Below, piece after piece: positions 4,523 through 43,011 of a stretch of 64,000 nt of DNA (its first letter is position 1; the number at the start of each line of letters is the position of its first letter). Under the pieces are notes generated by a model. The model did not search any database. It had not been told where the DNA came from and was given only the letters and a program-made list of their open reading frames with translations. The stretch covers positions 62,001 to 126,000 of the forward strand of contig DYJA01000005.1 in the NCBI GenBank assembly GCA_020723345.1. Reading direction: 5' to 3'. The stretch is from Candidatus Aquidulcis sp. Lineage in GTDB: Bacteria; Chloroflexota; Anaerolineae; UBA4142. Position numbers and translations under genes: made by a program.

Positions 4523-5011
4523 TCAAGTGCGGTGTGTCGCAAGTTTGTTTGCGGCTGCTTGATTTGGCGGTGTGCTCGGCACACTCAAGCCGGCAAATTC
4601 GCCCAATTGCCGACGGAGTTGCGCTGCCGACGCGACGCCGTTGTTGACGTGACGCGGCTGCCCGCGCGCGTCGATGACAAACGTCGTCGGCACGCTGAGG
4701 ACACCCCACTGATTTGCGAGGTCCATTCTTTCGGACGCGTCTATCTGGATGATCTGTAAACGGTCGCCAAACTGCGAGTGTAATTCTTCAAGCGCGGGGC
4801 GCTGGATGGTGCGACAAGGTGCGCAGTCGGGTGTCGTAAAGTACAAGATCGCTGGAGCGCCGACGCGAAAATCATCCAAACCCAGGTTGACTCGCTGACG
4901 ATTCGCGCGGCGCAGGATCATCAAGCGCAACGCGTTGAGCGCCAGGTACAACCCCACGCCCACTGTTATGATCAGAATCGCGATGCCGGAACGAATGAGC
5001 AGATCCATCAT
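4523..5011 (-). CDS. Membrane-anchored thioredoxin-like protein
   Basis: A 162-residue protein with one N-terminal membrane segment (about 8-28) followed by a thioredoxin fold. The active site is CAPC at C63/C66 (YFTTPDCAPC) and the cis-proline loop is SVPTTFVID. This arrangement points to a thiol-disulfide role at the membrane. The start ATG overlaps the DUF4395 stop (ATGATG), so the two are translationally coupled. DUF4395 proteins commonly sit beside thioredoxin-like proteins and also carry a Cys pair, so the pair may form a small electron-relay unit. Which side of the membrane the domain faces was not determined. The C-terminal tail after about residue 140 is low complexity. Confidence 0.88.
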   Translation of the reverse strand: MMDLLIRSGIAILIITVGVGLYLALNALRLMILRRANRQRVNLGLDDFRVGAPAILYFTTPDCAPCRTIQRPALEELHSQFGDRLQIIQIDASERMDLANQWGVLSVPTTFVIDARGQPRHVNNGVASAAQLRRQLGEFAGLSVPSTPPNQAAANKLATHRT

Positions 5012-5496
5012 CCCGCCTTGTGCGACGGACGCAGACCCGGAAATGTGCCGGCGGGCGGCTGCGCGTTAAAGCCGGGCGCGTGCAAACGACTGAGCCAATA
5101 GTACACAAAACAGCCCGCACAAAAACCGACGAACAGATTGAGCGCGGCAAGCGCGATGACGAGCCACGCCAAAGCCCAACCGACGACCGCGCTATTCAGC
5201 GCGAATGCCCCAGCCGCAATCGCCAGCACCGCGCCGCCCAGCCCTTGCGCGAACACATGCGGCTGCGGGTTGTCCACGAGCACCTCCGGCTTGACGAGTC
5301 CGCGCGGTTCGAGAAAACCGGTATAGATCAATCCAAAGCCGGGTTGACGCAACGCCGCCCCGCCGAGCAGCACCAAGCCAACCAGCGCCACTAACCACGG
5401 CGCGTTGACGATGAAGGCGAGGATCAGCACTGAAACGATCATCGCTTGATTGACGCGGATTGCAGAATGGTCGACCCGGGTCTGTAGTTCACTCAT
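5008..5496 (-). CDS. DUF4395 membrane protein
   Basis: A 162-residue protein of the DUF4395 family with four predicted membrane helices. The family pattern NPQPHVFAQGLGG is present mid-protein, and near the end FCAGCFVYYWL carries a CxxC cysteine pair. The track ORF starts at 5529 but the better start is the ATG at 5496, with AGGAGAGAT just upstream. The extra 11 residues of the longer ORF fall inside a terminator-like hairpin and are unlikely to be translated. It is coupled by a 4-base overlap to the membrane thioredoxin. The function is not established; the conserved Cys pair and the partner suggest membrane redox transfer. Confidence 0.87.
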   Translation of the reverse strand: MSELQTRVDHSAIRVNQAMIVSVLILAFIVNAPWLVALVGLVLLGGAALRQPGFGLIYTGFLEPRGLVKPEVLVDNPQPHVFAQGLGGAVLAIAAGAFALNSAVVGWALAWLVIALAALNLFVGFCAGCFVYYWLSRLHAPGFNAQPPAGTFPGLRPSHKAG

Positions 5497-5521
5497 CGTT
5501 ATCTCTCCTGAAGCAAAAGAA

Positions 5522-5553
5522 AAACTCATCGCCGCATTGCCAGCGATGAGTTT
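5522..5553 (-). terminator. Leader hairpin with U-tract upstream of DUF4395 (possible attenuator)
   Basis: The stem AAACTCATCGC (5522-5532) with GCGATGAGTTT (5543-5553) is followed on the minus strand by TTTTTCTTTTG and then directly by the DUF4395 ribosome site. It sits between the promoter at 5687 and the gene, so it would end transcription in the leader unless relieved. No known riboswitch class was recognised in the about 130-nt leader. Confidence 0.6.
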
Positions 5554-5686
5554 CTTGATTTTTGATCGAATCGGAAATCATCACCCCAATGCCAAGCGCG
5601 CGCGATGATTTTGCGCGCAGCAACAAAAGCCAACCGCCATCAGGATATCGCATCGTTCCGCAAGCATTCTGCACATTCTTCGCTTG

Positions 5687-5715
5687 ATTATACTATCGCT
5701 TTGCCCAATCGGGCA
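5687..5715 (-). promoter_or_regulatory. Promoter of DUF4395/thioredoxin operon with palindromic site
   Basis: A perfect TATAAT lies at 5687-5692 (minus strand). There is no good -35 box; instead a palindrome TGCCC-AATC-GGGCA (5702-5715) occupies its place, which could be an activator or repressor site. Confidence 0.5.
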
Positions 5716-5813
5716 TAAAGAACGCGTTAGACTTTGAGTTTAACGAACGATTTATTTTTTCGACTGGTCAAGCCTCTCCCGCGCCTGGTCGAGAATTCAT
5801 TCGGGGGGCGTTC

Positions 5814-7154
5814 TCAAATTTCCGCATGCCGAATTTGCGGCACCGCCCAGAATGCCAGCAGCGCGAGCAGAATCACGACCAGTCCCATCAACGCGACTGT
5901 CGTTGGCGCGCCTACAATGGACGACATGACGCCCGCCAAAAGCGCGCCGGCTGGCATCAAGCCCCGGTCCAAGAAATAGATGCTCAACACGCGCCCGCGC
6001 AACTCGTCCGGCACGAGTATCTGCAACATCGTCATCGAGAGACTCATAAAGCACATCTGGAAACATCCGACCCCGGCGAGAGCCAGCATCGCCGAGATCA
6101 GCGAATTTGTTTGCGAAAACGTAATGAGAAAAATCCCCAACAAGATTAGCGCGCCTAAAAGAAGCAATCCACGATGGCGCAATTGTTTGGCAAGCGACGC
6201 CAGCAAGAACGTCGCGCCAACCGCGCCGACGCCGGGCGCAGCCAGCAACATGCCAAGACCTTCGGGACCCACGCCCAGAACGTCCTTTTGAAAAACCGGC
6301 ATCAACGTGTTGTACGGCATCGCGAAAATCGTCGAAATCAAACTCACCAAGACCAAACTCAATATGAGTGAATTGGACGCGACATACTTTAATCCTACTT
6401 TGAGATCTCCGAGCGCGGAAGACTCGCGTACCGACGCGGGCGCCGCGTCGACGCGCATCATATAGATCATCGCGAGCACGCCGACATAGGTTGCGCCTTG
6501 CACGAAAAAATTTCCGCCGCCGCCGAACCACGCGATCAAAAGACCGCCCAGCGTCGGCGCAAACAATTTTGTCACATTGAAACCCATCGAATTGAGCGCG
6601 ACGGCGTTCATCAAGTCTTCTCTGGGAACGACGCTGGGCAGGAGCGCTTGCCGCACCGGCTGGTTGAACGACCAAGCGAGACCCGTGCTCAGCGTGAACA
6701 CGAACAGATGCCAAACCTCTGCGCGTTCTGTTACCACCAAGGCACCCATGATAAAAGCCGTGATCATCAGCAGCACTTGGGTGCTGAGCAATAGCCCACG
6801 CCGATCCATCCGGTCGGCGGCGACGCCTGCTGCTGGCGCGGACACGAGAAAGGGCAAAGTGCGGAGACCATTGAGCGCACCCAAGAGTACCGACGAACCG
6901 GTCATATCGTAGAGCAGCCAGCCGAGCGTGACTTGTTGGAGCCACTGCCCGGCGCTCATGAACACGGTGCCGACAAACAGATAGCGATAATCGCGATGGC
7001 GCAAGGAAGAAAAAGTCGCGCCGCCAATCCGAATGGCTCTGATGCGTCTCTGCGCGCGCCGACCAGGCGCCTCCGCGATGGCGACGGCGGGCTGAGTGAT
7101 CGTGTCAACGCAAACGGATTCGTCGGGTGTTGCTTGGGTTGTGATTTTTGTCAT
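5814..7154 (-). CDS. MFS transporter, MFS_3/enterobactin-exporter-like
   Basis: A 446-residue major facilitator with about 12 membrane helices after a 40-residue hydrophilic N-terminus. The segment LRHRDYRYLFVGTVFMSAGQWLQQV and the loop motif ADRMDRRGLLLSTQ (between helices 2 and 3) are typical of the MFS_3 branch, which holds exporters of siderophores and other small molecules; the actual substrate is unknown. The conserved FNQPVRQALLPSVVPREDL is also visible. The start at 7154 lacks a clear ribosome site nearby. It stands alone between the thioredoxin operon and the LacI gene, on the same strand as both. Confidence 0.9.
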   Translation of the reverse strand: MTKITTQATPDESVCVDTITQPAVAIAEAPGRRAQRRIRAIRIGGATFSSLRHRDYRYLFVGTVFMSAGQWLQQVTLGWLLYDMTGSSVLLGALNGLRTLPFLVSAPAAGVAADRMDRRGLLLSTQVLLMITAFIMGALVVTERAEVWHLFVFTLSTGLAWSFNQPVRQALLPSVVPREDLMNAVALNSMGFNVTKLFAPTLGGLLIAWFGGGGNFFVQGATYVGVLAMIYMMRVDAAPASVRESSALGDLKVGLKYVASNSLILSLVLVSLISTIFAMPYNTLMPVFQKDVLGVGPEGLGMLLAAPGVGAVGATFLLASLAKQLRHRGLLLLGALILLGIFLITFSQTNSLISAMLALAGVGCFQMCFMSLSMTMLQILVPDELRGRVLSIYFLDRGLMPAGALLAGVMSSIVGAPTTVALMGLVVILLALLAFWAVPQIRHAEI

Positions 7155-7259
7155 GCCGATCTATTCAGTCCATCCTTTGACGTGAAAAATCGGAGCGATT
7201 AAATCGTCGCGCGGAACCGGGCGCGTGATCCTGGCATTGTCGACGCGCAAAGCGCGCGC

Positions 7260-8288
7260 TCATTTGGCATGGCTCGTTGTCTCCGCGTCGCGAATTTTCG
7301 CGGAACAGCGTTTAATCAACGCGCCCGGAATCCAACGATGCACCGGCGCGAGGTCGGGGTCTTTGATCCGCGCGTCCAGCATCTCGAGCGTGGCTTCGAT
7401 CATTTGATCCACCGGTTGTTGAATCGTCGTGAGGCGATAGGCGGGCCACCCGGCGGCGGGAATGTCGTCAAAGCCGATGATCGAGAGCGCATCCGGAATC
7501 TTGATCGCCAGTTCGCGCGCGGCATCGAGCGCGCCCATCGCCATAATGTCGTTCGCGCAGAAAATCGCGTCGGGCGGATCGTTGCGCGCCAGTAATCGCT
7601 GCGCCGCCGCAAAACCGGATTCGTACGTGTACTCGCCCGGTTCGTACAGCCAATCCGGACAACCGCGCTCGCGCAATCGTTCGCCAAATCCTTTTTCGCG
7701 ATCCAGGTTCGTCGAAGTGTTTTTTCGTCCGGCGATGTAGGCGAGGCGCGTGTGACCGGCGTTCAAAAACAAATCGGCGACGAGGCGTCCCCCGGCGACA
7801 TTATCGCAACTGACCGCGCTCATCTCCGCGCCGGGCACGTAACGATTGAACAAGATCACCGGCGTTCCGCGGCGGGCGCATTCGTTCGTCATCTCGGAGG
7901 AAATGGTCGCGGAGGTGATGATGATCGCGTCGACTTGATATTGCAGCAACAGAGGCAGTGTGTCGTCCACGTCGCGATCGGGAGTGACGTTGAACAGCAG
8001 CGCGCGTCGACCGGTCGACTGCAAACGCTGGGTGAGTTTTTCCAGGACGGTCGGGTAGAACGGATTGGTCATGTCCGCCATGACAATGCCGACGATGTCG
8101 GTGCGCCGCGTGATCAGACTGCGCGCGAGCGCGTTCGGCGCGTACCCCAATTTGCGCGCCGCCGCCAGAACCTTGTCGCGCGTCTTCTGCCTCACCGCAT
8201 CGCTGTCGCTAAACACGCGCGACACGGTGGATTGCGACACTCTGGCGATGCGCGCCACATCATTTGAAGATGTTTTTTTTCGTAGCAT
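7260..8288 (-). CDS. LacI-family transcriptional repressor
   Basis: A 342-residue regulator. The N-terminal helix-turn-helix reads NDVARIARVSQSTVSRVFSD (about 8-27), followed by the hinge helix (KLGYAPNALARSLITRRTDIVGIV) and a periplasmic-binding-protein-like sensor domain with GFDDIPAAGWPAYRLTTIQQP near the end. The track ORF starts 33 codons earlier, but GGAGGG lies 6 bases before the ATG at 8288; the ATG at 8291 is only 2 bases from it. It is divergent from the hyi operon, and both promoters hold the same 14-bp palindrome right after the -10 box. It therefore very likely represses that operon and itself, with a sugar acid or related compound as inducer. Confidence 0.95.
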   Translation of the reverse strand: MLRKKTSSNDVARIARVSQSTVSRVFSDSDAVRQKTRDKVLAAARKLGYAPNALARSLITRRTDIVGIVMADMTNPFYPTVLEKLTQRLQSTGRRALLFNVTPDRDVDDTLPLLLQYQVDAIIITSATISSEMTNECARRGTPVILFNRYVPGAEMSAVSCDNVAGGRLVADLFLNAGHTRLAYIAGRKNTSTNLDREKGFGERLRERGCPDWLYEPGEYTYESGFAAAQRLLARNDPPDAIFCANDIMAMGALDAARELAIKIPDALSIIGFDDIPAAGWPAYRLTTIQQPVDQMIEATLEMLDARIKDPDLAPVHRWIPGALIKRCSAKIRDAETTSHAK

Positions 8289-8365
8289 CATTGCCCTCCA
8301 GTTGATCCGATAGACTGCCATGCGATTGCCGTTTCTCTCCCAAGAGCGTCTAAATCTAATCCTAA

Positions 8366-8381
8366 CTGAATACGTATTCAG
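8366..8381. promoter_or_regulatory. LacI-type operator 1 (CTGAATACGTATTCAG)
   Basis: A perfect 16-bp palindrome with the central CG typical of LacI-family operators. It lies just downstream of the -10 box of the regulator gene, where a bound repressor would block the start of transcription. Confidence 0.9.
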
Positions 8382-8385
8382 CAAC

Positions 8386-8415
8386 ATTATACTTTGGCTT
8401 TGCCTCTCTTGTCAA
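8386..8415 (-). promoter_or_regulatory. Promoter of the LacI-family gene
   Basis: On the minus strand TTGACA (8410-8415), an 18-bp spacer and TATAAT (8386-8391) form a consensus housekeeping promoter. Operator 1 follows at once. Confidence 0.88.
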
Positions 8416-8478
8416 AAAGGGATCAAAAGTATGAAAAGGCAATTGGGTTTTCGATCTTGGATTGCGTCTGCGCCATTT

Positions 8479-8507
8479 TTGACAACGTATTTGAGTTTCG
8501 CTATAAT
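8479..8507 (+). promoter_or_regulatory. Promoter of the hyi operon
   Basis: TTGACA (8479-8484), a 17-bp spacer and TATAAT (8502-8507) form a perfect consensus promoter. The start point would fall inside operator 2. Confidence 0.92.
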
Positions 8508-8513
8508 CGTTCG

Positions 8514-8527
8514 TGAATACGTATTCA
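8514..8527. promoter_or_regulatory. LacI-type operator 2 (TGAATACGTATTCA)
   Basis: The same 14-bp palindrome as operator 1, 148 bp away. Two sites at this spacing could allow looping by a tetrameric or paired repressor. Confidence 0.9.
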
Positions 8528-8636
8528 AGGACAATGCCTTTGGCAAAGGAGCATTCGAATGATACTCCACCGGCGCGTCGTCGAAGGGCTAGAGGCAATT
8601 CCGCTGCGCGTCATCGCGCTGGAATAGAATAAAAGT

Positions 8637-8701
8637 GTCCACGAAGGACACGAAGAACCGCGAAGATTTTTTCTTCGTGTCCCTTCGTGCGCTTCGTGGA
8701 C
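8637..8701. repeat. Period-9 inverted tandem repeat in the hyi leader
   Basis: Units of CACGAAGGA type on the left and CTTCGTGTC/CTTCGTGCG type on the right form a long imperfect hairpin (GTCCACGAAG ... CTTCGTGGAC) between the operator and the hyi ribosome site. It belongs to the same family as 10545-10605. Confidence 0.8.
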
Positions 8702-8727
8702 GAAAATATTTCTCGGGGGAGATGGTT

Positions 8728-9513
8728 ATGCCGAAACTTGCCGCGAATCTGACGATGCTGTACACCGACAGCCCGTTTCTGGATCGTTTCGCGCGCGCGC
8801 GCGCGTCGGGCTTTCGGTACGTCGAGTATCTTTTTCCGTACGAGCACGACATCAGCGCGCTGGCAGCCGCGTTGGAAAAGAACGGCTTGACCCAGGTGCT
8901 GTTCAACTTACCCGCGGGAAATTGGGGCGCGGGTGATCGCGGAATCGCCGTGTTCCCGGATCGCAGCGGCGAATTTCGTCAAGGTGTTGCGCGCGCGATT
9001 GAGGTTGCCAAGATTCTCAAAGTCAAACAGTTGAATTGTTTGGTCGGAAAACGCGATGAGAAGATTCCGCTTGCCGATCAACAACGTGTGATGATTGAAA
9101 ACTTGCGTTATGCCGCAAGCGAACTCGGCAAGCACGCTCTTTTGCTCCTGATCGAAATGCTCAATCCGTACGACGTGCCGAACTTTATGCTCGCGAGTCC
9201 ACGCGCCGCGTTCGCCGCGCAGGAGCAGGTCGCGTCGCCGAATCTCAAGGTGCAGTACGACGTGTACCACGCGCAGCGCACCGAAGGCGAACTCGCCGCG
9301 ACGTTCCAGAAAAATCTCGCGCGCATCGGACATGTGCAAATCGCCGATAACCCCGGTCGCCATCAACCGGGGACAGGCGAGATCAACTATCGCTTTCTGC
9401 TGAATCATTTTGATCGCGTCGGCTACGCGGGTTTCGTTGGATTGGAGTACATCCCAGAAGGAACGACGGAACAATCGCTCGCATGGGTCAAAGAGTACGG
9501 ATTGACAGTGTAG
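8728..9513 (+). CDS. hyi: Hydroxypyruvate isomerase (TIM-barrel)
   Basis: A 261-residue TIM-barrel protein of the sugar isomerase/AP endonuclease 2 superfamily. The start MPKLAANLTMLYTDSPFLDRF, FRYVEYLFPYE, the LLIEMLNPYDVPNF region and HVQIADNPGRHQPGTGEINY match the Hyi pattern; length is also typical (about 258). It should interconvert hydroxypyruvate and tartronate semialdehyde. GGGGGAG lies at the right distance for the ATG at 8728; the track's earlier starts fall in the repeat leader. It is the first gene of the LacI-controlled operon and is followed by a tartronate semialdehyde reductase, its usual metabolic partner. Confidence 0.9.
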   Translation: MPKLAANLTMLYTDSPFLDRFARARASGFRYVEYLFPYEHDISALAAALEKNGLTQVLFNLPAGNWGAGDRGIAVFPDRSGEFRQGVARAIEVAKILKVKQLNCLVGKRDEKIPLADQQRVMIENLRYAASELGKHALLLLIEMLNPYDVPNFMLASPRAAFAAQEQVASPNLKVQYDVYHAQRTEGELAATFQKNLARIGHVQIADNPGRHQPGTGEINYRFLLNHFDRVGYAGFVGLEYIPEGTTEQSLAWVKEYGLTV

Positions 9514-31862: not shown

Positions 31863-31954
31863 GGCTTTTGACGATTCCGCCAAGTTCGCTTATACTGCGG
31901 GTGGTTTCGGGGTACAATATTGCCCCGACCATCAGCAAGCCGTACTTGGTTCGT

Positions 31955-32011
31955 GCGGCGGAGAATGAAAACGGCAGCCGCGCGTGGGGTTGCCGTTTGC
32001 TATTTTGAAAG
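31955..32011. repeat. Left direct repeat flanking the toxin-antitoxin cassette
   Basis: GAATGAAAACGGCAGCCGCGCG...GGTTGCCGTTTGCTATTTTGAAAG, a hairpin with U-rich tail that also resembles a terminator. A diverged copy in the same direction lies at 32620-32686. Confidence 0.7.
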
Positions 32012-32021
32012 GGGAACCACA

Positions 32022-32276
32022 ATGGAAGCCGCGTTGACTGCGATAGAATTGACAGGAACGGTTGATGAGCGTCGCCAGTTGCAACTGGACGAGTTGCTCC
32101 CGATCCCTGGACCCAAGCGCGTGCGGGTTATCGTTCTCTATTCGCCGGTTGACGAATGGAGCGAAACGGAGTGGCTGCATGCAGCAGCGCGCAATCCCGC
32201 CTTTGATTTTCTAAAGGATCCAGAAGAGGACATCTACTCGTTGGCGGACGGGAAACCGCTCAATGCTGAAGCATAA
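32022..32276 (+). CDS. Putative antitoxin of a MazF-type pair
   Basis: An 84-residue protein, MEAALTAIELTGTVDERRQLQLDELLPI..., with an N-terminal beta strand pattern as in AbrB/DUF2281-like antitoxins and an acidic C-terminus (FLKDPEEDIYSLADG) of the sort that wraps a MazF-type toxin. The ATG at 32022 follows AAAGGGGAACCAC. It overlaps the toxin gene by 14 bases, the classic toxin-antitoxin arrangement. Family assignment of the antitoxin itself rests mostly on context; its sequence is not strongly diagnostic. Confidence 0.75.
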   Translation: MEAALTAIELTGTVDERRQLQLDELLPIPGPKRVRVIVLYSPVDEWSETEWLHAAARNPAFDFLKDPEEDIYSLADGKPLNAEA

Positions 32277-32607
32277 AGTCGTACTTGTTCCGTTTCCCTT
32301 CGACGATCTTTCCACAAACAAGGTTCGTCCGGCGGTTTGTCTCACCGATGCCATCGGACCGCACAATCACATCATTCTGGCGTTTATCACGAGCCGCGTT
32401 CCAGACAGTTCGTTGGACACCGATTTGGTGATTGACTCGGCGCACGCGGATTTTGACGCAACGGGATTGCGCGTTTCGTCCACACTCCAGTTGCATCGTT
32501 CGATAACCGCCACGCAAACGCTCTTGCGGCGCGAACTTGGCGCATTGTCGCCCGCATTGCAAGAACAAGTCAACAGCCGACTCCGCAAATTGTTCGATTT
32601 GAAATAG
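32263..32607 (+). CDS. PemK/MazF-type mRNA-interferase toxin
   Basis: A 114-residue protein with the PemK/MazF fold: KHKVVLVPFPFDDLSTNKVRPAVCLTD at the start, ILAFITSRVPDSS, and ...GLRVSSTLQLHRSITATQTLLRRELG in the middle. Such toxins cut mRNA at short specific sites when the antitoxin is lost. The start codon lies inside the antitoxin gene, so translation is coupled. The pair sits between two diverged direct repeats, a possible sign of a mobile cassette. The usual length of the family is about 110 residues, so it appears intact. Confidence 0.9.
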   Translation: MLKHKVVLVPFPFDDLSTNKVRPAVCLTDAIGPHNHIILAFITSRVPDSSLDTDLVIDSAHADFDATGLRVSSTLQLHRSITATQTLLRRELGALSPALQEQVNSRLRKLFDLK

Positions 32608-35509: not shown

Positions 35510-36920
35510 TCAATCGCACCGCGACCATTCCCAATCCCATGTACAACCAAAACAAAACCGCCGAGTGTGGAAATTTGAGATTGAAAAAATAGTGATCGGT
35601 CAAGCCGCCGATCAGCGCGCCGAGCACCGCGCCCGCGACGCCGAGCAGGATCGGCGCGAGAAACGCGTCGCGCGAAATTCCTGCCCGCCATCCTTGGAAC
35701 GCGTGGTAGAAAAATAATCCGAGCGTGATGAGAAACACGCTGACTCCGATCAGCCCCATCTCTTCCGCCATCAGCAAGTACACATTCGAGACACCCAGGT
35801 ACGTGTCAACGTCCGGCGAACCGCCAAAGCCGACGCCGAAAAACGGATAGCGCGAAATCAAAATCAGCGCGTCCTTGTATTCGCCGACGCGCATCTGAGT
35901 CGCGCGATCGCTGATCGTAAACGCGTCGAGCAAATGTCCGACGTACTCTTGCGTGAACGGCAGAAGCATAAAAACCGCCGCGCCGAGAATCAACAGCGCG
36001 ATGATCGGACGATAGCGCACGGTCGAGATCACCGCAAGCGCGAGGACGAGTCCAAGCAACGCGCCGCGCGAGAATGTCAGGATCATGCACGCGCCCATCG
36101 TCAGCGCCATCACGACAATCAACTTGCGCGGGAGCAACGGCTTGTCCGCGAACAACTGCGGCACGGTGAGAGCGGTGACGAGAATCATCAAGCCGCCCAG
36201 CACGTTCGGATCAACGGAGGTCGAAACCGCGCGCATCGGGTTTGCCGGATCGTCTTCGATGAAGCGGAGGACACGATCGCCGGTCGGATACTTGAAGACG
36301 CGCAGCGCGGAAAGAAGCGTGATCGTCCAATCGCGCGGAATGAAATACAAAATGATGCCGATTGCCGCCGAGATAAAGCCCGCGATCATCAGCGCGAGGA
36401 CGAACTGCCGCAGCGCGTCGCGCGTCCGCACGACGTTGACGATGACGAAGAAGAACGAAATCGCGGCGAGCACTTCGGCAAACTGACGCAAGACCTGGGT
36501 CGTCGCGGGCGCGTACGCCAAGCCCGCGATGAACGAAAAGCATGCGAGGACGAAGAACGCGAACACCGGCAAACCGAGCGGCGTCGCGACAAAACCGCCT
36601 TCGCCTTGTCGCGTCGTCACGCGCGCAAACCACATCGCGATCACCGCGATCAGCGCGAGATCGAGAAACGTCGGATTGAAGCCCAGGTTGATCGGCAGCG
36701 CGCCGAACGGCAGCAACACCGCGACTGCGATCACCGCGTACAATCCGAAATCAATATTCGACATCACGACGGCGGCGGCGATAACGCCGACTATCGCGGC
36801 GAACGGTACGAGCGGATGCACGAACGCGATGGACGCGGCACCGGCAATCGCGAGCGCGGCAGCGAGCGCGAGTAAAGATAACAAGGAGCGGTGGCGAGAT
36901 TCAATTAGTGGGAATTGCAT
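35490..36920 (-). CDS. O-antigen ligase/polymerase-like membrane protein (Wzy_C)
   Basis: A 476-residue protein with about 12 membrane helices and a large periplasmic loop near the C-terminus containing RVGEYKDALILISRYPFFGVGFGGSPDVDTYLGVSNVYLLMAEEMG, the Wzy_C/WaaL pattern. It probably joins or polymerises surface polysaccharide units. The start ATG at 36920 has AGGTAG upstream and a TATAAT at 36947-36952. The last codons come from the terminator hairpin shared with the opposing response regulator, so its natural C-terminus may have been extended or replaced by that element. It fits with the many glycosyltransferases in the window. Confidence 0.9.
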   Translation of the reverse strand: MQFPLIESRHRSLLSLLALAAALAIAGAASIAFVHPLVPFAAIVGVIAAAVVMSNIDFGLYAVIAVAVLLPFGALPINLGFNPTFLDLALIAVIAMWFARVTTRQGEGGFVATPLGLPVFAFFVLACFSFIAGLAYAPATTQVLRQFAEVLAAISFFFVIVNVVRTRDALRQFVLALMIAGFISAAIGIILYFIPRDWTITLLSALRVFKYPTGDRVLRFIEDDPANPMRAVSTSVDPNVLGGLMILVTALTVPQLFADKPLLPRKLIVVMALTMGACMILTFSRGALLGLVLALAVISTVRYRPIIALLILGAAVFMLLPFTQEYVGHLLDAFTISDRATQMRVGEYKDALILISRYPFFGVGFGGSPDVDTYLGVSNVYLLMAEEMGLIGVSVFLITLGLFFYHAFQGWRAGISRDAFLAPILLGVAGAVLGALIGGLTDHYFFNLKFPHSAVLFWLYMGLGMVAVRLKNPEGF

Positions 36921-36946
36921 GTTCTACCTGCATCTGTGTTGAGAAC

Positions 36947-36952
36947 ATTATA
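36947..36952 (-). promoter_or_regulatory. -10 box of the O-antigen-ligase-like gene
   Basis: TATAAT on the minus strand, 27 bases upstream of the ATG. No convincing -35 box was seen. Confidence 0.5.
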
Positions 36953-36974
36953 CCACGCAGGGTGGACACCCCAC

Positions 36975-37004
36975 TTGACAGTAACTACCATAATAAGGTA
37001 TATT
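36975..37004 (+). promoter_or_regulatory. Promoter of the tandem methyltransferase gene
   Basis: TTGACA (36975-36980), an 18-bp spacer and TATATT (36999-37004), close to consensus. Confidence 0.6.
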
Positions 37005-37043
37005 CTCCGGGAAATCAGAGCGCTTGGGATTGGGGGGCAACGA

Positions 37044-39704
37044 ATGAGTCAAAAATTCAAGAACATCTACTTTGCCGATTACCCCGGCGATTCTCCACAG
37101 AAAAAGAACCTGACTGTGGCATTCGGAGACAAGGATGAAAAACTCTATCAAACGATCAGGACTTTGTCCAGCCACGAACTCCGTGAAATGATAGGCTGCT
37201 CAACTTTTAGCGCTCTTCGCCAATCAGCGGAACAAGAAGGTTTGGCAACGAACACATATTGTCTACGTTTGTTGCGCCAGAAAGTGACGCCGCGGCGAGA
37301 AGAAAAGTTTGCCATTGATCCAATTCAAGCTACTTTCAAGGGCGGACAAGCGGAGCCGCTTCACGCCTGGTATCCCTTGCTTGAGGGATATTCGCCGCGT
37401 TTCGTGGAACAGGTCTTGGGCGAATTCGCGCCGCAAGCGACTCGGATTCTGGATCCATTTGCCGGCACAGGCACAACTCCCCTCACAGTTGCGCGATTAG
37501 GCAAAGCAGGATTCTACTGCGAAATCAATCCCCTGCTCCAGTTCCTAGCCGAGGTCAAAGCAGACGCGCTGGGAATGAATGAGACGACGCGAAACCGGAT
37601 GAGCAATTCTCTTCTTACGCTCGCTGGCGAATTGGAAACGTTATTAGAAAACGCCCTTCCCGATTCGCGCTTGGCGCAAGCATACACAGATAGTTTCTCT
37701 GACAGCCGCTTTTTTGACAACAAGACATTCGATCAAGTGTTGCGGATGCGTTCAGCGATTGACCGGTTGTCGCGCACCGAGCCAATCATCGCGCGGTTTC
37801 TCACTGTCGCCGTGCTGGCTAGTCTAATTCCTGCATCGCGGCTGATCCGCCGCGGCGATGTTCGCTTCAAGACAGCAGTTGAGGCAGAACGGTGCCGCGT
37901 CAAGTTTCTCGCGGCAGCGCAAAATCAACTCACGCGCATCGCTTTAGATCTTAAGGCGCTGACACCGTTTGTGAATCGCCCGATGCTCGTGTGCGAAGAT
38001 GCGCGCGCGCTGGTGAGTTTACCCCCGTTGAATATCGAGGCGGTAATTACCAGTCCGCCTTATCTAAATGGCACGAATTATTTTCGCAACACCAAAATCG
38101 AATTGTGGTTTCTACGATGTCTCAATTCATCCACTGATCTCACCGCGTTCAGGCGCAAAGCCGTGACCGCCGGAATAAATGACGTTACCGTTGACAAACC
38201 GAGTGATGAGATTGATCCTTCCGTGCGGAAGGTAATCGAACGCTTGGAAGAGTCTGCCTATGACCCGCGCATACCCAAAATGGTGGCAAGCTTCTTTATG
38301 GACATGCGCTCTGTCTTTAGCGCGGTCAGAAAACATTTGATCAATGATGCAACTATCCTAATTGATATTGGCGATTCATCCTATGGCAATGTGCATGTTC
38401 CAACTGACATTCTGTTGGAAAACGTTTTGGCATCCCTAGATTTCACCCTGCAGCGAAAGATCATCTTGCGTCGGCGCATGTCGCGCAGTGGATTCCCCTT
38501 GAATCAAGTGCTGCTGGCTTTCGAATTATCCAAACCATCGCGACGGGCTTTGCGCGAAGCACAAGCGGCGCCCCTCGCTTCATCATGGAACGCGGCTTGG
38601 ACGAAGTTCAAATCCGACTTGCCGCACCAACGTGGCGCATTTGCCAAACGCAATTGGGGTCATCCGCTCCATTCGCTATGTTCGTATCAAGGCAAAATGA
38701 AACCTTCGCTTGCGTCGCACCTTGTCCGAACATTTTTGCCAAGCGGAGGTACTCTGCTCGACCCATTCGCTGGGGTTGGCACGATTCCGTTCGAGGTGGC
38801 GTTGCAGGGCGGAAAGGCAATCGCGTTTGAAATCAGTCCGCCCGCCTTGCAAATCAGTTCCGCCAAACTTGGTCGCCCCAACGCGAATGATTGCGCTGCG
38901 CTACTCGACACACTGAACATTTTCATCCGAGATCAGAATGTGACCGAGACCGAAATTGAGAAAGCGAAAGCCATCCACTTCAATGGAGCATTACCCGATT
39001 ATTTTGAATTCAAAACGTTTCACCAAATCTTGTTGGCGCGACGATATTTCCTCGATCATCCGCCGCACACGCCGTCAGAATCGCTTGTGCTGGCGTCGCT
39101 CTTGCACATTCTGCACGGGAATCGTCCGTACGCCTTGAGCCGGCGTTCGCATCCCATCACGCCATTTGCTCCAACGGGGACAGTCGAACATCGCGCGCTG
39201 ATCCCGCGCTTGCGTGACAAGATCAATCGAAGTTTGATGGTCGCCTGTCCCAGCGAATTCGTCCAAGGCGACGTGTACTTTCAAGACGCAACCGGATGGT
39301 GGCCCCACCCTGTTGACCAACTGGATGCGATCATCACTTCGCCGCCATTTTTCAACAGCACCCGGTTTTACTTGGCAAATTGGATGCGCCTTTGGTTTTG
39401 TGGCTGGGAAGCGCAGGATTTTCGCACCCAACCACTCGCGTTCGTGGATGAACGCCAGAAGAACAGTTTTGAGATTTACGCGCCTATTTTCCGCCAAGCG
39501 CGCGAGCGCCTCAAATCCAGCGGCGTGGTTGTGTTTCATTTGGGCAAAAGCCGCAAGTGTGACATGGCTCAAGCCCTCGCGCAAATTGCTTCGCGTTGGT
39601 TTCGCGTGATTGATATTTTCGCAGAGAACGTCAGCCACTGCGAGTCACATGGCATTCGTGACAAGGGGACGGTAGAAGAGCACCAATACCTCATCTTGCA
39701 GTGA
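37044..39704 (+). CDS. Large protein with two DNA-methyltransferase motif sets
   Basis: An 886-residue protein. Four motifs alternate: DPFAGTGTTPL (about 152-162), TSPPYLNGTNYF (about 340), DPFAGVGTIPFEVAL (about 573) and TSPPFFNSTRFY (about 770). FAGxG is the SAM-binding motif and (T/S)PP(Y/F) the catalytic motif of amino-methyltransferases, so it looks like two fused N4-cytosine or N6-adenine DNA methyltransferase modules, or one permuted module plus extra halves. The ATG at 37044 follows GGGGGG. The gene is richer in A/T than its neighbours and lacks in-frame repeats. It is convergent, with a 1-base gap, to an HNH nuclease gene, suggesting a restriction-modification unit. Confidence 0.85.
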   Translation: MSQKFKNIYFADYPGDSPQKKNLTVAFGDKDEKLYQTIRTLSSHELREMIGCSTFSALRQSAEQEGLATNTYCLRLLRQKVTPRREEKFAIDPIQATFKGGQAEPLHAWYPLLEGYSPRFVEQVLGEFAPQATRILDPFAGTGTTPLTVARLGKAGFYCEINPLLQFLAEVKADALGMNETTRNRMSNSLLTLAGELETLLENALPDSRLAQAYTDSFSDSRFFDNKTFDQVLRMRSAIDRLSRTEPIIARFLTVAVLASLIPASRLIRRGDVRFKTAVEAERCRVKFLAAAQNQLTRIALDLKALTPFVNRPMLVCEDARALVSLPPLNIEAVITSPPYLNGTNYFRNTKIELWFLRCLNSSTDLTAFRRKAVTAGINDVTVDKPSDEIDPSVRKVIERLEESAYDPRIPKMVASFFMDMRSVFSAVRKHLINDATILIDIGDSSYGNVHVPTDILLENVLASLDFTLQRKIILRRRMSRSGFPLNQVLLAFELSKPSRRALREAQAAPLASSWNAAWTKFKSDLPHQRGAFAKRNWGHPLHSLCSYQGKMKPSLASHLVRTFLPSGGTLLDPFAGVGTIPFEVALQGGKAIAFEISPPALQISSAKLGRPNANDCAALLDTLNIFIRDQNVTETEIEKAKAIHFNGALPDYFEFKTFHQILLARRYFLDHPPHTPSESLVLASLLHILHGNRPYALSRRSHPITPFAPTGTVEHRALIPRLRDKINRSLMVACPSEFVQGDVYFQDATGWWPHPVDQLDAIITSPPFFNSTRFYLANWMRLWFCGWEAQDFRTQPLAFVDERQKNSFEIYAPIFRQARERLKSSGVVVFHLGKSRKCDMAQALAQIASRWFRVIDIFAENVSHCESHGIRDKGTVEEHQYLILQ

Positions 39705-39705
39705 T

Positions 39706-40605
39706 TCACGTCTTAAGAAAATCTGGCACAATCCTCGCCAGTGCGAAAATATCTTTGCCCTCCATCTCCAAAATTAACTCGCGCACCTTCGTGATGTCCT
39801 CTGGATAGGCGATCCACTGCTCAATAAATTGATCCACATTTGCAACGATCCGCGTAACGGCTATCGGGTTCAAGCGCGGCGCCCCATCGAGCAAATCGTA
39901 CTCGATGCTGGTCAATCGCGCCAACCGTTTTAGTTGCGCCGGTTTGTAAAACTCGGACGGCCATTTGTCATGTTTGGCGTTGTTGCAGTCGGCACAGAGC
40001 AACGTCGCTCGCGCGGTTGTGAGGGGCCAAAGATACTTGGCAGGCAAGGTATGATCGATTCCGTATCCTTTTGCGCTGCGCGCTTTGTATACCAGTGGTT
40101 TGCCACAATTAAAGCATTGGCGCTCAAAACGTTCAAAGATAGCGCGGCTGTCTATCTTGCCTTCTTCGCCGGAGAGCAAGTGATAGAGCTGACGTCTTTG
40201 CGATGCTTCGCGATGCTGGTCGCTGGTTCGTTTGGGGTTCAGGTCGGGATTGATTCGTGTGTTCTTGCAAACCCGACATTCGAGTTGCCGCCCCGAACGA
40301 AATGATCGGCCTGTCGGTTTGTGTTTGTGAAAGTTCTCCAGCGGTTGTAACCATTCGCAGACGCGGCAATACTTCCAGCGGCTTGCTCGTTCAATAATTG
40401 CGGGTGGATTCTCAAAGCCACACCGAGGGCACTTGGCACCGGCAAGATGTCCCTGTGCTTGCTCTGTCTTCAGCCAATCTTCTGAAACCTTCATCAATTG
40501 ATCGCATCCGGGCCTGTAACATTCAAAGACGCGCCAGACTTCACTTGCATTAACAACCCCAGTGCCCCGGATGTTTGTGACATTACGTGCGACTCGTCGC
40601 GCCAT
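39706..40605 (-). CDS. HNH endonuclease with N-terminal zinc ribbons
   Basis: A 299-residue protein. Two Cys-rich units come first (CYRPGCDQL ... CPRC, then CRVCEWL ... CRVC), consistent with zinc ribbons that could read DNA. They are followed by an HNH nuclease core: CFNCGKPL, YGIDHTLPAKYL and LLCADCNNAKHDK, which also binds zinc. The C-terminal helical part has no recognised motif. The start at 40605 follows GAGGAG. It is tail-to-tail with the tandem methyltransferase gene, so it may be the restriction partner that cuts DNA lacking the methyltransferase mark. It also lies 12 bases after the YfhO gene on the same strand, so it may be co-transcribed with that block. Confidence 0.85.
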   Translation of the reverse strand: MARRVARNVTNIRGTGVVNASEVWRVFECYRPGCDQLMKVSEDWLKTEQAQGHLAGAKCPRCGFENPPAIIERASRWKYCRVCEWLQPLENFHKHKPTGRSFRSGRQLECRVCKNTRINPDLNPKRTSDQHREASQRRQLYHLLSGEEGKIDSRAIFERFERQCFNCGKPLVYKARSAKGYGIDHTLPAKYLWPLTTARATLLCADCNNAKHDKWPSEFYKPAQLKRLARLTSIEYDLLDGAPRLNPIAVTRIVANVDQFIEQWIAYPEDITKVRELILEMEGKDIFALARIVPDFLKT

Positions 40606-40617
40606 TTACTTTGCTCC

Positions 40618-43011
40618 TCAATGCAATTTTGCTGATCGATCGAATAATAACGTTGCTATGATTACAAGAAGTGTCACCACCGTGATCGCAATCCCCACCT
40701 TCACCGACCACGGATCGAAAATGAATTCTACCTGTTTCGTCCCGGCGCGCACCGGCACCGCGCTCAACGCGACGTTCGCGCGCAGAATCGGCGCAGGCGT
40801 GCCATCAACGACCGCGCGCCAGCCGGGGTAATAGTAATTTTCACTCAGGACGAGCAAGCCATCGGCGGGCGCGTTGACGACGACGCGCGCGTGTTCTGGC
40901 GTGATGCGCTGGAAATCGGCGGCGTGCGCGCTGCGACTTGTTTCGCGACGAATCGGCGGCGCGGGCAGCACGACCGGCGACGCATCGGCGATGTACGCAA
41001 GGTACCACGGATCGAACGCGTCGGATGAAATTGCCGCGAGCACTTGATCATCGTTCGCGTTGTGAATCGCGTACGGCACGAACCACGCGCGCGGCATCGC
41101 ATCGTTCAAACGCAAGAGGCGCGTGTCGCCGTCGTTTGTGACGAGTTCGGCGTTTTGAAAACCGGGACGCCCGGTAATCGCATAGCGCACGTTCAGCAGC
41201 GACCATAATTTTTCTTCGGGCAAATTGTCGCGCAGAACATCGTAGCGCGCGATGCGAAGCGGACTGATGCCGCCGATCTCTTCCAGGTTGTACGCGACGC
41301 CGAAATGCCCCGGCATTTTGCCTTCGTCCACGACGCGGAACACGCCGCGATCACCCTGGATTGCCTGAATGATCGGCGTGACCGGATAGCGCGGTTTCGG
41401 TTCGGCATTATACGCTTGCGAATTGATGCTAAACAAATCGAAGACAATGAGAACAATCGCTAGTCCGCCGAATAAATTCGGCGTCTGAAGCAGGTGAAAA
41501 TCGGCTAAAGCCGATTGCGCGCCAGCCCGATTCATCGGGCTTGCATCTATTGAGGCGGACGATTGATCGTCCGCTAGCCGGATTCGCCACGCGACCAACA
41601 CGCTTGCCAGCACAAACAGCAACGTCATCAATCCGGCGCGCGTGCCAAGAAAGGCGACTTGCCCGGATTGTTTCAGCGTACCGGAAATGTAGAGCGTGCA
41701 AACAAACATCAAACTGATCGTCACACCGGCGGGAAGCAACGCCCATACGCGGCGCGCGCGTTTCACGTCGCTCGACGCGCGCATCAAATCGCGGAAACCA
41801 TAACCCGCGAGGATCGCGAGCGCAAAACTGATGACGAGCGCGAGTCGTTCCTGTCCGCGAAAGAGCGCAAAGCCGGGAACGAAAAGATAGAACAGGGCGT
41901 ACGCAAAAACGTAAAAGCCGAACGCGACCAGCAGCGAACCGAGCGCGAGCATTGCCCAGAAAATTTTTTCGCGCGAATGATTGACCCACAACGCAAAGAT
42001 CGCCAGCCACAGCGGCAAGATGCCGACGTACAACGGCGATTGAAACGCGCTGACAAAGCCGGGCAGAATCATTTGCAACGGATCGAGCGTCGGAAAACCG
42101 CGCGCGGCTTCCGCCCAACTGATCGCGGCGCGCGTCGAAATCATCTGGTATTCGAGCGTCGGCAGCCATTGCGCGGCGGAGATTCCCAGTGCGATGAAAA
42201 TCGTCAGCGCAAAACGTGATGCGTGATGCGTGTTCCGTGATGCGTGTTCCGTGTTCCGTTCTTGCCACACTCGCCACACAAAATAAATCGCGCACGCGTA
42301 CGCGACGAACATAAACGTCTGCGGATGTCCCGCGAGCGCGGCGATGCCGAGTGTGACGCCAGCGGCGATAAAATCAATTGGGACGCGGCTGAACGCGGCT
42401 GAACGCGGATTTTCTTTTCCATCCGCGCTTGTCCGCGCTAGTCCGCGTTCTACGAATAACAACGCGAGCGGCAGCCAGGTCGCGGTCTCCAATATCGCGA
42501 GTTGTTGCGGCGGATACGACGTGAGGTATCCGCCGAATGTAAACGTCAACGCGCTGGCAAGCGCGGCGAGGCGCGAACCGAGCAATCGCTTGGCAAACAA
42601 GTACGTGAACGCGCCCGCCAGAATGAAATGGACAAGCGCTTCGATTTCGAGATCGAGCAGCGCAAAATTCGCGCCGCGCAGCGCGACGACGATCAGCGTC
42701 CAGATCAAACCGACCGGGTAAAAGATCGCGCTCTGCACATCGGCAAGAAACGGATGACCGCCATTGAAATTGTCCGACCAGAGCGGCAAGCGTCCTTCCG
42801 CGAACGCGCGCGCCTCGTACATTCGAAACGCCCAGAACTGATCGGTGAAATCGCCGGGGGGAAAAACCGCGCGGTCTTCCAGGCGCGGCGTGATGATGCG
42901 CCAGAAGAAGAGGAGGACGAGCGCGGTGAGGAGCACAAACGGGAGAAGATTTATGATTTTCGACCCTTCGACTTTGCTCAGGGCAGGTTTAGGATTTATG
43001 ATTTGGCTCAT
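40618..43011 (-). CDS. YfhO-family multi-pass membrane protein (second copy)
   Basis: A 797-residue paralogue of the gene at 21069: PLWSDNFNGGHPFLADVQSAIFYPVG, FRGQERLALVISFALAILAGYGF and LSENYYYPGWRAVVDGTPAPILRAN are the YfhO landmarks. The start is the ATG at 43011, overlapping the stop of the GT39 gene upstream (ATGA); the first 60 codons of the track ORF are a shadow of that gene. Four repeat elements are in frame: the N-terminus itself (SQIINPKPALSKVEGSKIIN), an ACGCGGCTGA period-10 element, a GTGATGC heptad element, and the hairpin cluster at 41467-41574. About 90 residues are thus repeat-coded, all in loops or termini. Confidence 0.9.
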   Translation of the reverse strand: MSQIINPKPALSKVEGSKIINLLPFVLLTALVLLFFWRIITPRLEDRAVFPPGDFTDQFWAFRMYEARAFAEGRLPLWSDNFNGGHPFLADVQSAIFYPVGLIWTLIVVALRGANFALLDLEIEALVHFILAGAFTYLFAKRLLGSRLAALASALTFTFGGYLTSYPPQQLAILETATWLPLALLFVERGLARTSADGKENPRSAAFSRVPIDFIAAGVTLGIAALAGHPQTFMFVAYACAIYFVWRVWQERNTEHASRNTHHASRFALTIFIALGISAAQWLPTLEYQMISTRAAISWAEAARGFPTLDPLQMILPGFVSAFQSPLYVGILPLWLAIFALWVNHSREKIFWAMLALGSLLVAFGFYVFAYALFYLFVPGFALFRGQERLALVISFALAILAGYGFRDLMRASSDVKRARRVWALLPAGVTISLMFVCTLYISGTLKQSGQVAFLGTRAGLMTLLFVLASVLVAWRIRLADDQSSASIDASPMNRAGAQSALADFHLLQTPNLFGGLAIVLIVFDLFSINSQAYNAEPKPRYPVTPIIQAIQGDRGVFRVVDEGKMPGHFGVAYNLEEIGGISPLRIARYDVLRDNLPEEKLWSLLNVRYAITGRPGFQNAELVTNDGDTRLLRLNDAMPRAWFVPYAIHNANDDQVLAAISSDAFDPWYLAYIADASPVVLPAPPIRRETSRSAHAADFQRITPEHARVVVNAPADGLLVLSENYYYPGWRAVVDGTPAPILRANVALSAVPVRAGTKQVEFIFDPWSVKVGIAITVVTLLVIIATLLFDRSAKLH
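41467..41574 (-). repeat. Hairpin cluster in frame in YfhO gene (CGTCT-AGGTG family, copy 2)
   Basis: GCCGAATAAATTCGGC, AATCGGCTAAAGCCGATT, GCCCGATTCATCGGGC and GCGGACGATTGATCGTCCGC. The linker GCGTCTGAAGCAGGTGAAAA matches copy 1. It encodes LADDQSSASIDASPMNRAGA and the residues after it, between a membrane helix and the soluble domain. Confidence 0.85.
42215..42261 (-). repeat. GTGATGC / GTGTTCC heptad run in frame
   Basis: CGTGATG-CGTGATG-CGTGTTC-CGTGATG-CGTGTTC-CGTGTTC. It encodes NTEHASRNTHHASRF in the YfhO protein; the unit is related to 46830-46875 (NTQHVSRNTQHATR in the GT39 protein). Confidence 0.8.
42381..42453 (-). repeat. ACGCGGCTGA / GTCCGCGCTA period-10 inverted repeat in frame
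   Basis: Three ACGCGGCTGA-type units face three GTCCGCGCTT-type units. It encodes VERGLARTSADGKENPRSAA and a few further residues in the YfhO protein. Confidence 0.8.
42948..43008 (-). repeat. Repeat forming the N-terminal coding end of the second YfhO gene
   Basis: AAATCAT/AAATCCT/AAACCTG heptads, the CTGAG..GTCGAAGG unit and GGTCGAAAATCAT. The peptide PALSKVEGSKI parallels RPERSEGSKI at the start of ccmH. Confidence 0.75.

Follow-up and report, generated by a model that had tools for sequence, protein, structure and literature searches.

The window, the whole 64,000-nucleotide stretch of Candidatus Aquidulcis sp. DNA that was analyzed, carries two intact, convergent open reading frames whose stop codons are separated by 1 base: M, a fused double DNA methyltransferase (M1-M2) of 886 amino acids, and R, a short-form HNH nuclease of 299. 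A sequence-only reading of this DNA had described an 886-residue chain in which two FAGxG and two (T/S)PP(Y/F) motifs alternate, and DPFAGTG, TSPPY, DPFAGVG, and TSPPF do lie along M in that order. The ORF coordinates likewise agree with its 299-residue HNH protein ending 1 base away on the opposite strand, and cysteine pairs outside the HNH agree, by sequence, with the two extra zinc ribbons it had placed there. An alternative, longer TTG start for M exists at 36915, but the ATG was taken as the start because close homologues begin at the same MSQ(K/R)F. The features are as follows.

36846 to 40690, no strand: segment missing from the collinear locus of genome G265 (L055), from blastn of the window against L055, where the flanks are 0.8 kb apart
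36975 to 37004, forward: promoter-like site TTGACA-18-TATATT upstream of M (11/12, consensus scan)
37044 to 39704, forward: M, fused double DNA methyltransferase M1-M2, 886 aa from the ATG
37044 to 37319, forward: N-terminal extension of M1 (residues 1-92), without a Pfam match; shared by the Chloroflexota clade and L026
37320 to 38522, forward: M1 domain (residues 93-493), 39% identical to the Psychrobacter plasmid M1 over residues 86-493
37452 to 37472, forward: M1 motif I DPFAGTG (residues 137-143), predicted AdoMet binding
38049 to 38063, forward: M1 motif IV TSPPY (residues 336-340), predicted catalytic; TSPPY(L/V)NGTNY in 31/31 family members
38598 to 39701, forward: M2 domain (residues 519-886), 47% identical to the Psychrobacter plasmid M2 and homologous to M1
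38760 to 38780, forward: M2 motif I DPFAGVG (residues 573-579)
39336 to 39350, forward: M2 motif IV TSPPF (residues 765-769), predicted catalytic; TSPPF..S in 31/31 family members
39706 to 40605, reverse: R, HNH nuclease, short form, 299 aa, convergent with M
39946 to 40128, reverse: HNH core with its own zinc ribbon (residues 160-220; DHT, CN..K); DHT in 32/32 relatives, pLDDT mostly >85
40267 to 40368, reverse: candidate zinc ribbon 2 (C80/C83 with C110/C113), containing QLECRxCK, conserved in the family alignment
40420 to 40521, reverse: candidate zinc ribbon 1 (C29/C34 with C59/C62); C29, C59, and C62 are invariant in alignment A1

M matches the Pfam family N6_N4_Mtase (E=3.3e-17), and its first half matches the PADLOC model MTase_II (1.5e-63), with weaker matches for the second half. 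The halves are 25% identical over ~300 residues (E=4e-14); being homologous yet diverged, they point to an ancient duplication that is invisible to a DNA repeat search. The earlier statement that no in-frame repeats occur is thus correct for the DNA but not for the protein. All 31 sequences compared retain an intact motif IV in each half, and 29 of them an intact motif I by a strict pattern; both halves have the order of motif I, variable region, and motif IV that defines alpha-class amino-methyltransferases. Enzymes of this class read their target between motifs I and IV. That region is the least conserved part of M1 (27% mean identity vs 44-48% on the flanking parts), whereas in M2 a part of it matches the catalytic core in conservation. 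The sequences recognized across the family would accordingly appear to vary but may share a part. The ~90-residue N-terminal extension of M1 is common to the Chloroflexota copies (window 37044-37319; G059/L054) and gammaproteobacterial L026. Controller genes are not found alongside it, and it could itself bind DNA in autoregulation.

R contains six cysteine pairs, forming three potential Cys4 ribbons, of which 164/167 with 204/207 lies inside the HNH; the two extra ribbons rest on sequence, the structure model being of low quality beyond the HNH half. Pfam HNH scores below its cut-off on R (15.4 vs 21.4 bits), but R has the DH...N...K core in a zinc-ribbon frame that is characteristic of the HNH (beta-beta-alpha metal) superfamily, and the DHT...N..K core is retained across the nuclease family. 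The best solved matches to the R structure model are Cas9 HNH domains, with which the HNH core aligns. There is no dedicated model for R in Pfam, NCBIfam, or PADLOC; routine annotation will therefore label the pair as a methyltransferase next to a hypothetical protein.

The search covered 298 genomes from the same class: two, G131 and G103, have an intact R, the R of G030 has a stop codon as well as ambiguous bases, and a fused M is the convergent neighbor of R in all three. Genome G059 has M (53%) without R; this, and the failure of the PADLOC restriction-enzyme models to recognize R, count against a restriction-modification (R-M) reading. Genome G171, where only nuclease fragments and no methyltransferase were found, favors that reading, as R is fragmented where M is missing. 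A scan of species genomes with a nuclease alignment yielded 28 loci: L019 and L020 repeat G131 and G030, L046 is cut by a contig end, and the other 25 (L021-L045) are complete and new. M1 and M2 adjoin R in 25/25 of the latter, and also at three further Chloroflexota loci and on a Psychrobacter plasmid, all found with nuclease seeds. The 25 belong to Pseudomonadota, Actinomycetota, Cyanobacteriota, Verrucomicrobiota, Planctomycetota, and Bacillota, with one labeled Euryarchaeota, although single placements are unsure because several are metagenome-assembled genomes (MAGs). To offset the bias of seeding with R, viral contigs were scanned with a methyltransferase alignment, and R lay convergent beside M in 10/10 loci; the fused-methyltransferase alignment found these contigs, whereas the nuclease alignment found nothing there. 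Of 199 Moraxellaceae genomes, three have R, and the same three have M. The window M1-M2 sequence (P0001) as a single query had no match in genome or viral contigs, DNA comparison revealed no homologue in E. coli, and GenBank phage records contained no match to M or to long R, short R being weakly matched.

In total, the pair occurs at 40 loci (the window, L013-L016, L021-L045, and L066-L075), in none of which was either half of M lost alone. R and M are convergent throughout, except in L038 (divergent), L040 (same strand), and L041 (interleaved). The R and M trees have 8 of 23 splits in common, and with short nucleases excluded the Mantel correlation is 0.32, a value reached in 4 of 5000 permutations; r falls to 0.03 when short nucleases are included because they form a distant branch. 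The Chloroflexota copies have dN values of 0.12-0.29 with dS at or beyond saturation, a pattern such as would arise under purifying selection. The sequence-only reading had called the pair a candidate R-M unit and named conserved co-occurrence of the two families as a check; that co-occurrence is borne out, since the partner adjoins in every complete locus in both directions of search. We therefore judge the cassette to be a real and mobile example of a known general kind, DNA self-defense by R-M, as the pair recurs in many unrelated bacteria, one archaeal genome, and viral contigs.

The architecture of the family is variable. About half of the loci encode M1 and M2 as a single chain, the others as two neighboring genes, and at least seven changes between the fused and split states are needed on a tree of 30 sequences. 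Most nucleases are ~430-520 residues long and have a beta-sandwich at the N-terminus, most of which is modeled at pLDDT >90; a fold search with the long nuclease returned, for its parts, only generic beta-sandwiches and Cas9. The short R, which has no such domain, characterizes the clade of the window and is also found in L072/L073. The sequence-only reading had not foreseen the split-M form, which usually comes with a longer nuclease and often with a controller gene, or the copies on viral contigs. Two long HNH nuclease genes lie in tandem beside one M1/M2 pair in L027 (3534-6645) and L030 (3685-6843), and the near-identical system of L032 has one long nuclease only within the stretch covered. 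L041 (1874-6576), from the MAG labeled Euryarchaeota, interleaves a short HNH, M2, a long HNH, and M1, and thus has two nucleases per methyltransferase pair. We suggest tentatively, and regard as rather doubtful, that all of these constitute one unnamed R-M family, spread over at least six bacterial phyla, a Euryarchaeota-labeled MAG, viral contigs, and a lineage with recoded TGA; its duplicated methyltransferases would be constant and its nuclease exchanged: a short HNH, a long beta-sandwich-HNH, or two nucleases that might cut one strand each.

A C-type helix-turn-helix (HTH) gene immediately precedes R in nine loci, and L044 has an N-terminal HTH on M1. The window locus has no HTH controller gene before R and no HTH on M1, and is not classed as C-protein-controlled; R there lies 12 bases after the upstream YfhO-like gene. 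M may be expressed before R.

That the cassette was acquired, as the sequence-only reading had proposed, is supported by the empty site in G265, a genome of the same genus, and by low GC3. The values for M and R (0.574 and 0.563) are the lowest of the 31 long ORFs in the window, which also upholds the earlier observation that their composition is unlike that of their neighbors. At the position of the cassette, between a Wzy_C gene and the YfhO-like gene, G265 has a DUF5615 (PIN-like) gene (L055 1603-1953; E=9e-25), and this spot may therefore be a preferred one for small addiction-type cassettes. Elsewhere in the window (31920-32607) is a PemK/MazF-like toxin gene (E=3e-10), and the small upstream ORF that overlaps it could be an antitoxin. 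The distribution of the cassette is patchy (3/199 Moraxellaceae genomes and 4-5/298 genomes of the class), and relatives were found on a 6.5-kb plasmid and on viral contigs. Genes adjoining the cassette on these contigs, read by eye, are portal-like in L067 (9027-10436) and L074 (9131-10546) and serine recombinase-like in L072 (8657-10354), which suggests that temperate phages or integrative elements carry it. L075 (IMGVR_UViG_3300031994_005358, 4959-8932) is a viral contig of 27% GC in which M1, M2, and a convergent R are intact only if TGA is sense. Its R model scores 362 bits with TGA read as Gly (code 25) vs 300 as Trp, and this higher score suggests a Gracilibacteria/Absconditabacteria-type host.

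As in Type II R-M systems, the methyltransferase and nuclease are separate but consistently linked genes, and the catalytic motifs of both are intact. We consider it highly probable that the locus is a horizontally acquired Type II cassette, in which M1 and M2, fused and anciently duplicated, would each modify one of the two strands of an asymmetric site, as the sequence-only reading had thought possible, the mark probably being N4-methylcytosine, and so protect both strands of host DNA. The convergent HNH protein would cut at or near the unmethylated sequence, its zinc ribbons holding the fold and perhaps helping in DNA binding. The system is probably IIS-like: an asymmetric site is favored because the two methyltransferase halves are diverged and always retained together, whereas a palindrome needs only one methyltransferase. 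Likewise, m4C is likely a better guess than m6A, because M1 has a studied relative in M.DraR1, which belongs to the alpha class, makes m4C, and has its motifs in the same order. The SPP(Y/F) motif fits m4C and would also allow m6A. The same system with N6-adenine methylated by one or both halves has a modest chance of being correct, in that the N6_N4_Mtase family spans both products and the fused pair MhoVII makes 6mA (PMC12898733); what argues against it is that SPP(Y/F) combined with the alpha order is the arrangement of M.DraR1 (PMC6712171).

Catalytic motifs that are intact in both halves, neither of which was lost alone in 40 loci, make it quite unlikely that the site is palindromic, perhaps interrupted, with the halves methylating two bases or one half being mainly structural, and with R acting as a symmetric oligomer. 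A precedent for such an arrangement is BslI, an unusual palindromic enzyme that is a zinc-containing heterotetramer with Zn(Cys)4 motifs (PMC4081073). HNH genes are often mobile, and the one orphan M copy in G059 could be taken to mean that M is a solitary or regulatory methyltransferase that happens to lie beside an unrelated homing or mobile endonuclease. This is very improbable, given that every complete locus, from either search direction, has R and M side by side, that C-type regulators precede R, and that the trees are partly congruent; a homing-endonuclease reading of R was rejected on the same grounds. Scarcely credible, and likewise rejected, is a modification-dependent, Type IV-like R modeled on SRA-HNH enzymes, since the long relatives do couple HNH to an extra N-terminal beta-rich domain, but that domain has no SRA-like match and is missing from the window R, and a nuclease of this kind tied to two methyltransferases would be expected to attack its own host.

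The R-M family to which the cassette belongs is well supported but uncharacterized, and its homologues may figure in REBASE among putative systems. Should the site prove asymmetric and the marks m4C, M would serve as a single-chain tool for placing m4C on both strands, and R would be a new HNH restriction enzyme rich in zinc. Because M has switched repeatedly between the fused and split states, and R between short, long, and double forms, the family is a usable case for studying the exchange of R-M parts.

The closest comparison is with the Psychrobacter plasmid pA39BP3 (NZ_MN657077), which has convergent orthologues of M1 (39%), M2 (47%), and the HNH half of R (32%). Unlike the window cassette, the plasmid encodes M1 and M2 in two genes; its R, of 471 aa, has an additional domain at the N-terminus and is preceded by an HTH gene. 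Two proteins of its R-M locus are annotated merely as hypothetical, and our literature search found no paper on this plasmid. BslI is a possible relative, a lead taken from a review. The Alw26I/Eco31I/Esp3I model TIGR02986 is absent among the window R matches, and the best relative (Psychrobacter) scores 15.6 vs a cut-off of 443.85 bits; by that cut-off R is not a member of the family, and its resemblance to Eco31I is distant. Because no family member above cut-off was found in 400 Chloroflexota and 199 Moraxellaceae genomes, the comparison sequence was taken from E. coli EC958. The EC958 locus, like ours, has two methyltransferases convergent with an HNH nuclease, a Type IIS enzyme of Eco31I type whose core aligns with that of R at an hhalign probability of 91%. 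However, its M1 is not alignable to the window M1, and methyltransferases of the Eco31I family are m6A and m5C (PMC4659465).

M.DraR1 (DR_C0020) of Deinococcus radiodurans is homologous to the M1 half (370 residues, 22%, 4e-10), and its gene is likewise convergent with that of its nuclease. It is an alpha-class m4C enzyme with the FxGxG...SPPY order seen in M1 (PMC6712171), but has a single domain, recognizes the palindrome CCGCGG, and is partnered by an Eco29kI-like nuclease (PMC10855626). By published description, two methyltransferases per chain, one for each strand of a non-palindromic site, is the plan of FokI (PMC4081073) and MhoVII (PMC12898733). These differ from our system in that MhoVII makes 6mA with YhdJ- and D12-type domains (PMC12898733) and the FokI nuclease is PD-D/EXK (PMC4081073). 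The window M has two intact methyltransferase domains that are always retained together, and may follow the FokI-like plan.
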